Shown in pieces: positions 4,742 to 52,011 of a DNA stretch of 53,189 nt. The stretch spans positions 1 through 53,189 of the forward strand of contig VGHJ01000017.1 in assembly GCA_016868295.1 (NCBI GenBank), read 5' to 3'. This stretch comes from Betaproteobacteria bacterium (GTDB lineage Bacteria > Pseudomonadota > Gammaproteobacteria > Burkholderiales > Rhodocyclaceae). Every line of letters begins with the position of its first letter. The first letter of the stretch is position 1. A program made the translations under genes and the position numbers. The notes beneath the pieces were generated by a model. It was not told the DNA's origin. It saw only the letters and a list, made by a program, of their open reading frames with translations, and did not search any database.

Positions 4742-4856
4742 AACCGCATTTAGCACAGAGGACACAGAGGACACAGAGACACAGAGACACAGAGGGGAAA
4801 CAACTGTTTTTCTCTGTGCCCTCCGTGCCTCTGTGCTCTCTGTGTTGAAAGCGGTT
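4742..4856. repeat. Family A CACAGAG inverted-repeat element, empty copy 1
   Basis: A 115-bp palindromic element. The left arm (4742-4794) starts AACCGC and repeats ACACAGAG(G) units; the right arm (4812-4856) is its imperfect reverse complement and ends GAAAGCGGTT. The loop is only 17 nt. The left end lies 4 nt after the iorB stop. Two other copies lie at 49102 and 51538; the last carries a gene. No target-site duplication is evident. Confidence 0.9.
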
Positions 4857-4918: not shown

Positions 4919-5773
4919 ATGACCGCAAAGATCCTCGACGGCAACGCCCTCTCCGCCAAACTCCGCGAATCCCTCCGCCACCGCGCGGCCGAGCTGGCCG
5001 CCCAGGGGTTCAAGCCCGGACTGGCGGTGATCCTGGTCGGCGAGAACCCGGCTTCCCAGGTGTACGTCCGCAACAAGATCAAGGCCTGCGAGGCGGTCGG
5101 CGTGCACTCCGAGAAATACGAGTTCCCCGCCGACACGCCGCCGGAAAAGGTGCTGAAGAAGATCGCCGCGCTGAATGCCGACCCGAAGATCCACGGCATC
5201 CTGGTGCAGTTGCCCCTGCCGCCGCAGTTCGACGAGGACGAAGTGCTCGAGGCCGTATCCGCCGAGAAGGACGTCGACGGCTTCCATGCCGAGAACGTCG
5301 GCCTGCTGGCGCAGGGCAACCCGCGCTTCATCTCGTGCACGCCCTACGGCGTCATGGAAATGCTGAGTTCGGAAGGCATCTCGCTCCGCGGCAAGGAGGC
5401 GGTGGTGGTCGGCCGCAGCAATATCGTCGGCAAGCCGATGACCCTGCTGCTCATCGGCGCCAGCGCCACCGTCACGGTCTGCCACTCGCAGACGAAGGAC
5501 CTCGCCTTCCACACCCGCCGCGCCGACGTGCTCGTCGCCGCGGTGGGCAAGGCGAAGATGATCACCGGCGACATGGTCAAGCCGGGCGCGGTGGTCATCG
5601 ACGTCGGCATCAACCGTTTGCCGGACGGTAAATTGTGCGGCGACGTGGATTTCGAAACGGCGAAGGAAGTCGCTTCGCTCATCACCCCGGTGCCGGGCGG
5701 CGTGGGTCCGATGACCATCACCATGCTGCTCGCCAACACCATCGAGAGCGCGGACCGCGCTGCTGGAAAATAG
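4919..5773 (+). CDS. folD: Methylenetetrahydrofolate dehydrogenase / methenyltetrahydrofolate cyclohydrolase
   Basis: A 284-residue bifunctional cytosolic enzyme of one-carbon metabolism. It interconverts 5,10-methylene-, 5,10-methenyl- and 10-formyl-tetrahydrofolate with NADP. Visible motifs: [13 protein letters not shown] with the catalytic Tyr and Lys near residues 45-55, the substrate loop QLPLPPQF, the NADP-binding GRSNIVGKP around 165, and the C-terminal [11 protein letters not shown] signature. Length is normal. The ATG at 4919 gives the standard N-terminus (MTAKILDG). purE follows 13 nt later. Folate one-carbon supply and purine synthesis are linked pathways, so co-transcription makes sense. 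Confidence 0.96.
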
Positions 5774-7441: not shown

Positions 7442-7517
<76 letters not shown>

Positions 7518-21851: not shown

Positions 21852-22214
21852 GGAAGTCCGCCAGGCAGCCGCTGTGCGCTTCGCGCGCATGGAGGAAAGT
21901 CCGGGCCCCATAGAGCAGGATGCCGGCTAACGGCCGGACGCCGCGAGGCGATGGAAAGTGGCACAGAGAACAGACCGCCTAAGTCCGCAAGGGCCGGCAA
22001 GGGTGAAACGGCGAGGTAAGAGCTCACCGCAGACCGTGGCAACACGGCTGGCACGCTAAACCCCATCCGGGGCAAGGCCAAATAGGGAAGCCATGGCGCT
22101 GCTCGCGCCGCTTCCGGGTAGGCTGCTAGAGCGCCGCGGCAACGCGTCGCCCAGAGGAATGGCTGCCGGGCAGCTTCGGCTGCCTTACAGAACCCGGCTT
22201 ACCGGCGGACTTCC
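21852..22214 (+). ncRNA. rnpB: RNase P RNA, class A
   Basis: The catalytic RNA that trims tRNA 5' leaders. Outer helix P1 pairs GGAAGTCCGCC (21852-21862) with GGCGGACTTCC (22204-22214) perfectly. Conserved core blocks are visible: GAGGAAAGTCCGGGC with the 'AGAGCAGGATGCCGG' region (CR-I), GGGTGAAACGG and GGTAAGAGCTCACCG, GGCAAGGCCAAATAGGG, and CAGAGGAATGGCTG with CAGAACCCGGCTTA (CR-IV/V). Size (~363 nt) is normal. It lies just before the dcw cluster, a frequent arrangement in betaproteobacteria. Open frames inside it are not genes. Confidence 0.97.
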
Positions 22215-22371
22215 AATCCCCCTCCGGGTGGCGAGCAGCCACTTATCTTCAGAGTCTACTTTCACTTCGTTTTCTATACACATTGTTTTTTAAGGATAAT
22301 TTTTTCAAGATTTTCTCTCGGCACGCTCTCTTAAGTCTTTGTTGCGACTGGAAAAAATCGCAATTTCCAGC

Positions 22372-49101: not shown

Positions 49102-49217
49102 AACCGCCTTCGACACAGAGGACACAGAGGCACAGAGTGCACAGAGAGAGCTTCTCTCTTGTTCCTGCCTTTCTCTGTGTCCTCCGTGTCTCTGTGCCCT
49201 CTGTGTTAGAAGTGGTT
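49102..49217. repeat. Family A CACAGAG inverted-repeat element, empty copy 2
   Basis: A 116-bp element between rpe and gph. Left arm starts AACCGCCTTC then ACACAGAGG units to about 49150; the right arm (about 49172-49217) is complementary and ends GAAGTGGTT. The right end is 5 nt before the gph ATG and is the only RBS candidate (GAAGTGG). Inner sequence about 20 nt, no gene. Confidence 0.9.
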
Positions 49218-51537: not shown

Positions 51538-51538
<1 letters not shown>

Positions 51539-52011
51539 ACCGCTTTCAACACAGAGAACACAGAGAACACAGAGACACAGAGAACACAGAGATGGAAGAC
51601 AATGTTCTTTCCGGTCAGGTGATCGGCGCCGCCATCGAGGTGCATCGGGTGCTCGGGCCGGGACTGCTTGAATCGGCCTATGAATTGGCGTTGGAGCGGG
51701 AGCTTCTGCTGCTCGGGCTCGACATTCGGCGCCAGATACCGGTCCCGCTTCAGTACAAGGGGGCGAGCCTGGGCGACGGTTTCCGCATAGACATTCTCGT
51801 GAACGAATTGTTGCTGGTCGAGATCAAGGCGGTCGAGCAGCTTGTGCCGCTGCACGAAGCCCAGCTTTTGACTTATTTGCGCCTGACCGGCAAACGACAT
51901 GGGCTGCTCGTCAATTTCAATGTCGCGGCACTCAAGAACGGCGTCAAACGGGTGACGAATGGTTATTAGATTTCCCTCTGTGTCTCTGTGTCCTCTGTGT
52001 TGAAAGAGGTT
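51538..52011. mobile_element. Family A CACAGAG element carrying a GxxExxY gene
   Basis: A 474-bp element between trpE and trpG. Left arm 51538-51591 starts AACCGCTTTC and repeats ACACAGAGA units; right arm 51974-52011 is complementary (CTCTGTGTCTCTGTG...) and ends TTGAAAGAGGTT. The arms match the two empty copies (4742, 49102). Between them is a single gene, its ATG directly joined to the left arm. It starts on the last base of the trpE stop and ends 6 nt before the trpG ATG. No transposase. Mobility is inferred from copy number and placement. Confidence 0.85.
51592..51969 (+). CDS. GxxExxY family protein (PD-(D/E)XK nuclease-like)
   Basis: A 125-residue protein with the family signature G24-L-L-E27-S-A-Y30, after IGAAIEVHRVLGP. 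The second half fits a PD-(D/E)XK core: D67 in FRIDILV, then E77-I-K79, followed by LVPLHEAQLLTYLRLTG and GLLVNFN. Members are often multicopy in environmental bacteria; their role is not established. The fold suggests nucleic-acid cleavage, but the substrate is unknown. The ATG directly follows the CACAGAG left arm and the gene fills the element. Codon use is less GC-rich than trpE and trpG, which fits acquisition. Confidence 0.88.
   Translation: MEDNVLSGQVIGAAIEVHRVLGPGLLESAYELALERELLLLGLDIRRQIPVPLQYKGASLGDGFRIDILVNELLLVEIKAVEQLVPLHEAQLLTYLRLTGKRHGLLVNFNVAALKNGVKRVTNGY

Follow-up and report, generated by a model that had tools for sequence, protein, structure and literature searches.

Facing arrays of spaced heptamers around GxxExxY nuclease genes: a probable family of small REPIN-like elements in bacteria

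The window, a stretch of 53,189 nucleotides considered here at its full length, contains three elements in which copies of the heptamer CACAGAG form two facing arrays. One element encloses a gene and the other two enclose a short core. The question raised by this locus is whether the gene and the arrays belong to a single family of elements and whether the encoded protein is the enzyme that acts on the arrays. In the following, G000 designates the genome of the window, the other G-numbers designate other genomes and the L-numbers designate loci or elements.

An earlier note on this DNA placed three elements with AACCGC...GCGGTT-like termini in the window, and all three are present (Table 1). 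They are bounded by AACCGC..GCGGTT (4742-4856), AACCGC..GTGGTT (49102-49217) and AACCGC..GAGGTT (51538-52011), and show the same order of parts: AACCGC, CACAGAG copies, core, facing copies and a GxGGTT-like end. The window contains 17 copies of ACACAGAG; 100 shuffles give a mean of 0.82 and a largest value of 3. A core of 17-20 nt had been described for the two empty elements, which is correct for the first (17 nt) and too short for the second (26 nt). The gene that follows the first is presumably folD, judging from its translated start, with a start codon near 4919. As single-stranded DNA the two empty elements fold with z-scores of -7.34 and -6.74, and a comparison with Rfam gives no family match for them at the gathering threshold. 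The window also contains a Bacterial RNase P class A RNA at 21853-22217 (Rfam RF00010, 308 bits) and a tRNA at 7442-7514.

Table 1. Positions of the array elements of the window and of their parts
Feature	Position	Strand	Description
Gene-bearing element	51538..52011	+	trpE-trpG junction; AACCGCTTTCAA ... TTGAAAGAGGTT
Left array of gene-bearing element	51549..51591	+	five CACAGAG units, spacings 9,9,8,9
GxxExxY / PDDEXK_3 gene	51592..51969	+	125 aa; ATG directly after left array
Right array of gene-bearing element	51976..52000	-	three facing CACAGAG units; 9,8 from outer end
Empty element, rpe-gph junction	49102..49217	.	arms 9-8-9, core 26 nt
Empty element upstream of folD	4742..4856	.	left arm five units 9,9,8,8; right 9-8-9; core 17 nt

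The third element had been described as carrying exactly one gene, for a GxxExxY nuclease-like protein, and no transposase. Both statements hold: the sole gene inside is a PDDEXK_3 gene, whose product is a full member of TIGR04256 (136.9 bits, cut-off 35) and of PF13366 (134.3 bits, cut-off 22). The protein contains an E..D..ExK..QxxxY pattern, in which D67, E77 and K79 form the D..ExK core of the PD-(D/E)XK nucleases. The active site is intact across the family: E77, K79 and Q91 are each conserved in 86/86 sequences, and E27, D67 and Y95 each in 85/86. The best of five AlphaFold2 models has a pLDDT of 87, and two of the five are poor. The top PDB matches of the model in Foldseek, 4ic1 (SSO0001), 3syy (LHK-Exo) and 6m9k (lambda exonuclease), are nucleases of the PD-(D/E)XK superfamily, but weak matches (E 0.018 to 0.2), none of them at E <= 0.001. 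SSO0001 is taken here to be a Cas4 protein, and Cas4 profiles match the window protein weakly (E 0.015). The window protein has no cysteine and therefore no Cas4-type iron-sulphur cluster. When PDB chains were compared with the family profile by sequence, none matched at E <= 10. The resemblance to Cas4, lambda exonuclease and RecB-type nucleases is thus found in the best folds, in the Cas4 profile and in the residue pattern, whereas the matches are only weak and the protein has only 125 residues. The conservation of the active site, together with these weak fold matches, makes it likely that GxxExxY is an active nuclease of the Cas4/lambda-exonuclease type.

The genome of the window (G000, 2.67 Mb in 118 contigs) has 13 places marked by two-unit arrays. 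Twelve of them are empty elements (L061-L072, with L062 and L066 partly degenerate) and one is the gene-bearing element, which contains the only GxxExxY match found by profile search in the whole genome. The proposal that one gene-bearing copy shares its ends and arrays with many empty copies is hence borne out genome-wide. The empty copies had been regarded as deletion derivatives of the autonomous one, and the entry of the gene into an empty element could equally explain the two forms. Core lengths were taken from the parse of the elements into units; none exceeds 141 nt among 51 parsed empty elements, so that no other cargo is seen there. The orientation of the genes adjoining 51 elements is unclear in 34 cases, because spurious long ORFs swamp the GC-rich sequence, and for the same reason the count of elements that fall inside long ORFs (19/51) is not relied on.

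The association of the gene with facing arrays extends well beyond this genome. The gene is present in 31/150 genomes of a family sample and in 65/398 genomes of a phylum sample. From both samples, a genome-contig scan and fetched regions, 97 loci were read, and the exclusion of seven duplicate or partial ones left 90. Arrays of at least two units flank the gene on both sides in 72 of these 90 loci, an arrangement that the earlier note had proposed to look for in other genomes, and in 0/385 control windows from the same loci. On at least one side they are found in 82/90 loci and 28/385 controls. A pattern-free measure, the best match score between the upstream and the reverse-complemented downstream sequence, has a median of 26.5 (n=96), compared with a median of 11 and a largest value of 24 in 231 control windows. 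Arrays of at least two units are found on neither side of the gene in eight of the 90 loci (L145, L150, L158, L159, L160, L168, L175 and L176). Among these, L159 has strong arms made of another sequence (inverted-match score 43), L145 and L175 look degenerate, and at L160, L168 and L176 the presence of arms is doubtful. In L158 (G527, from another family) the gene lies between trpE and trpG, as in the window, and has no arms at all; it may have been domesticated there or have decayed. L034, L037 and L293 are composite: the gene stands next to complete empty elements where other loci have single arms.

The gene not only lies inside arrays but also occurs together with empty arrays across genomes. 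Hits of three array patterns were counted in a set of 51 genomes of the family, made up of every gene-carrying one (31) and 20 of the 119 gene-less ones. Summed over the three patterns, at least 10 array hits are present in 26/31 gene-carrying genomes and in 1/20 gene-less genomes (Fisher p 2.6e-8). The gene-carrying genomes below this number are G018, G131 and G148, whose units fall outside the three patterns; G132, with a gene fragment in a genome that is 81% complete; and G135, which by these patterns has no arrays beyond the arms of the gene itself. The gene-less exception is G002, with 28 hits in a genome that is 83% complete. A gene without arrays (L158) and arrays without a gene (G002) therefore both occur, and both are rare instead of being found everywhere. 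The non-autonomous forms number from 10 to about 100 per genome, and the highest count of three-unit array hits, up to 202, is that of G121. Since gene-carrying genomes usually hold many gene-less arrays, the gene and the arrays look like one element family. The best explanation, to which a probability of roughly 60% is given, is a family of small selfish elements that resemble REPINs but have a Cas4/lambda-exonuclease-like nuclease, not a RAYT, as their cognate enzyme.

The arrays are characterized by both the letters and the spacing of their units. The units vary by lineage (CACAGAG, CGCAGAG, CACGGAG, CACCAAG, CACGAAG, CGCAAAG, CRCAGAT and a few others). The spacing is fixed within a lineage, often unequal, and varies between lineages: 9-8-9 in G000, G004, G032 and G077, 9-9 in G020, 8-8 in G040, and 9-10, 10-10, 8-9 or 9-11 elsewhere. 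The left and right arms have the same spacing, counted from the outer end, in 43/47 loci. A tree of 86 proteins, 72 of them labelled, was built from few alignment columns and contains many weak forks. The spacing class changes on it 12 times, against a shuffled mean of 44.5 and a least value of 39 in 300 shuffles; in ten rows the class was read from the printed arms and set manually. For the unit letters the same tree requires 22 changes (shuffled 44.3). The spacing thus follows the protein phylogeny, which would also be expected from vertical inheritance alone.

These features leave hardly any probability to simple-sequence slippage, by which the arrays would be functionless local tandem repeats only incidentally associated with the gene. 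The units are indeed short and of low complexity, and some arms hold five of them. On the other hand, the arrays face each other, share their ends, have a fixed non-uniform spacing such as 9-8-9 and co-occur with the gene, and the spacing and co-occurrence results already contradict slippage.

The spacing code is shared by the gene and the empty copies of the same genome. The class of the gene is also the commonest array class of its genome in 17/21 cases (shuffled mean 7.1; mismatches in G040, G065, G075 and G141), in a test that omits ten of the 31 gene-carrying genomes for having other spacings, two classes or a gene fragment, and in which genome classes and hit counts were entered by hand from the pattern counts. 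G032 has two genes, one in 9-8 CACAGAG arrays and the other in 9-9 CACCAAG arrays, and holds empty elements of both classes. A later test covered genomes of other families: at least 10 hits of 9-10 arrays are present in 6/10 genomes with a 9-10 gene, 1/18 with a gene of another class and 0/8 without the gene. When only the family containing all ten 9-10-gene genomes is considered, the difference is slight (p 0.043). G361 has 31 hits of 9-10 arrays although its known gene is 9-9. Arrays of the 8-9 class number 13, 77 and 74 in the three Chloroflexi/Chlorobiota genomes of L084-L086, whose gene arms are 8-9, with controls of 0. The 8-8 pattern of fixed spacing is not independent of its reversed control: long runs of 8-nt units match both, which gives control counts such as 94 (G050).

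An association of this kind could also arise if another enzyme moved the arrays and GxxExxY were a homing-type gene that uses the array elements as a safe harbour, cutting empty copies so that repair copies the gene in. Such a gene would fit the excess of empty over gene-bearing copies (12 to 1 in G000), the intact active site and the composite loci, which look as if the gene had entered among complete empty elements. Nevertheless, a host element moved independently of the gene should persist without it, whereas arrays are rare in gene-less genomes (1/20), and the finding of one spacing class per gene clade implies that the arrays depend tightly on the gene. The homing explanation is consequently regarded as unlikely.

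The arms do not behave as perfect hairpins, and a reading of them as such is rejected. Among 50 elements whose arms are both 9-8-9, the complementarity of the spacers is 0.344 (shuffled 0.397), or 0.552 when G-U pairs are included (shuffled 0.574); the spacer letters between the units pair no better than shuffled ones. Any facing array would allow the unit stems to pair. Units opposite each other in such a pairing are identical slightly more often than after shuffling (132 against 124.4 +/- 3.3, p 0.016). As the spacers are not complementary, what is kept is the 7-mer unit and its spacing, not the pairing. The arms thus resemble phased rows of binding sites more closely than a hairpin maintained by selection.

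The pairing also bears on an RNA-level alternative, in which the inverted repeats would be transcribed and excised by RNase III with the ORF as a passenger, as in the IVS of 23S rRNA. Common to both are long inverted arms around a single small ORF, inside transcripts. The IVS are located in rRNA helices and reportedly carry the S23 protein. In contrast, the present elements encode a nuclease, of a different fold, and occupy intergenic sites at operon junctions, and their spacers are unpaired, with no sign that the arms are selected for pairing. An IVS-like origin is therefore considered very improbable.

The joined flanks of the 13 G000 elements were searched in three congeners and the sites were aligned. 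G010 has an element at 12/13 sites and G121 at 11 of the 12 sites found. The gene-less G073 has none at the 13 sites, 11 of which are closed, the other two being occupied by other sequence without arrays. The sister-genome comparison proposed earlier thus indicates that the elements are not fixed in the genus. The placement of G073 gives a split of 78/51/37, with a tree that nests it weakly and an AU p of 0.056 for a basal place. G073 may have lost its elements, and as it is not clearly basal, gain and loss are indistinguishable at sites other than rpe-gph.

At the rpe-gph junction the element is present in G000, G010 and G121. Eight readable relatives have a short junction without array, in several of them an overlapping TGATG, and seven of the eight carry the gene elsewhere or at trpE-trpG. 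In G055 the junction contains other sequence, CACC-rich and facing. In these alignments the insertion is polarised as the gain of an empty element. No target-site duplication is recognised at this gain, where a divergence of about 9% blurs the edges. The gene copy at trpE-trpG is common to several genera; in 30 further genomes of the family, the 350 nt upstream of trpG contain no array.

Resident elements also change their type. At seven shared sites both arms consist of CGCAAAG units in G121 and of CACAGAG units in G000 and G010, except that at one of them G010 has CGCAGAG. The unit type is hence replaced in all units of both arms together. The units of G121 are 96% alike within an element and 85% between elements. 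Where the type has switched, the outer ends retain their similarity (0.73, shuffled 0.56) and the cores are near the shuffled level (0.52 against 0.45), compared with 0.67 against 0.51 for the same-type cores of G000 and G010. The switch looks like a replacement of the inside of a resident element, although the numbers are small. The L062 site, at a thiolase-SDR junction, has three different element types in G000, G010 and G121.

A further pair of genomes, G020 and G081, keeps about 20-25 elements despite a degenerate gene. In six elements shared by the two, 247/252 unit letters are identical, against 979/1080 in the flanks (p 2e-5), and 469/638 core letters; a seventh, L184, was omitted, having only 24/42 unit letters aligned, and its inclusion gives 271/294. 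At three of ten G020 elements there is no array at the corresponding place in G081. The sole GxxExxY gene of each genome (L059 in G081, L060 in G020) is degenerate, apparently by different deletions.

The conservation of units above the coding flanks even with a degenerate gene, the strong folding of the arrays and their sites between genes of operons such as trp would suit arrays recruited by the host, either as operon RNA hairpins (terminators, processing, stability) or as host protein-binding sites, with GxxExxY as their processing or regulatory nuclease. Against recruitment stand the spacers, which are not complementary even with G-U pairs, the orthologous junctions that work without elements in congeners and 30 further genomes of the family, and the wholesale switch of unit type at the same site. 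A host function of this kind is thus judged to be somewhat less likely still than a homing gene.

For the preferred reading, that of REPIN-like elements with their own nuclease, the following working mode is proposed. The autonomous form would consist of a minimal PD-(D/E)XK nuclease gene (GxxExxY) between two facing arrays of 7-nt units, and the non-autonomous form of the same arrays around a short core. The protein is presumed to bind, cut or move the arrays. Probably as an oligomer, it would recognise the spaced units in cis and in trans and cut or trim the DNA there. Host repair would then copy an element from elsewhere into the cut, or convert the resident one. As a result, element families would expand, displace each other at long-occupied sites and remain uniform, with insertions surviving mainly in intergenic gaps. 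The whole would work like REPINs with RAYT by means of an unrelated nuclease. A more specific version is put forward tentatively, as a possibility short of an even chance: a nuclease-only mobile DNA of several phyla, in which one Cas4/lambda-exonuclease-like protein, about 125 residues long, takes the base count between heptamers as an address and cuts elements of its own spacing class, and host repair copies the element into new gaps and over older families, rewriting whole sets of sites.

REPINs are short extragenic inverted repeats with many copies per genome that depend on the RAYT nuclease, with lineage-specific sequence classes and co-evolution of enzyme and repeat (PMC3116915, PMC8266576). 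The present elements resemble REPINs and RAYTs (TnpA_REP) in being many extragenic inverted-repeat elements with a cognate nuclease gene and lineage-specific classes, and in the co-evolution of repeat and enzyme. They differ in that the enzyme is a PD-(D/E)XK protein instead of a HUH/tyrosine one, that its gene lies inside the element as the only gene, that each arm is built from 7-nt units repeated at a fixed spacing, and that there is no palindromic stem whose pairing matters. A parental IS and its MITEs likewise comprise an autonomous copy and internally empty copies with shared ends; unlike them, the present elements have no transposase fold and their ends are unit arrays. At the blurred edges of the rpe-gph gain no target-site duplication is recognised. 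The accessible literature on GxxExxY (TIGR04256/PF13366) describes neither a function nor flanking arrays. The array strings were found in the literature for animals and in none for bacteria, and no such system was found in the literature on REP, MITE and nucleases, in a search outside of which lie preprints and most subscription papers.

GxxExxY proteins are common and so far without function; if they drive the arrays, a large family gains a role. Intergenic repeats of Pseudomonadota, Chloroflexota, Chlorobiota and others would then get an owner, and bacteria would have arrived at the REPIN/RAYT way of life a second time, by an independent route. From the spacing classes it is predicted that a protein of one class acts on arrays of its own spacing and not on others.

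Several other arrangements accompany these elements. In L129, L136 and L153 the GxxExxY reading frame starts inside the left array, and the predicted N-terminus is translated repeat, such as PQRTQGTQR. Six relatives are found on plasmids. By eye, three of them (L290, L292 and L293) show arrays and L291 shows a left array only; at L294 and L295 no clear arrays are discernible. One relative is found among viral contigs, with arms visible by eye. In L285 (G547, Chlorobiota), at about 1440-1530, the arrangement is reversed: a CTCTGTG array is followed by a CACAGAG array and their outer ends meet, as if single arms could be arranged either way, like REPs in BIMEs.
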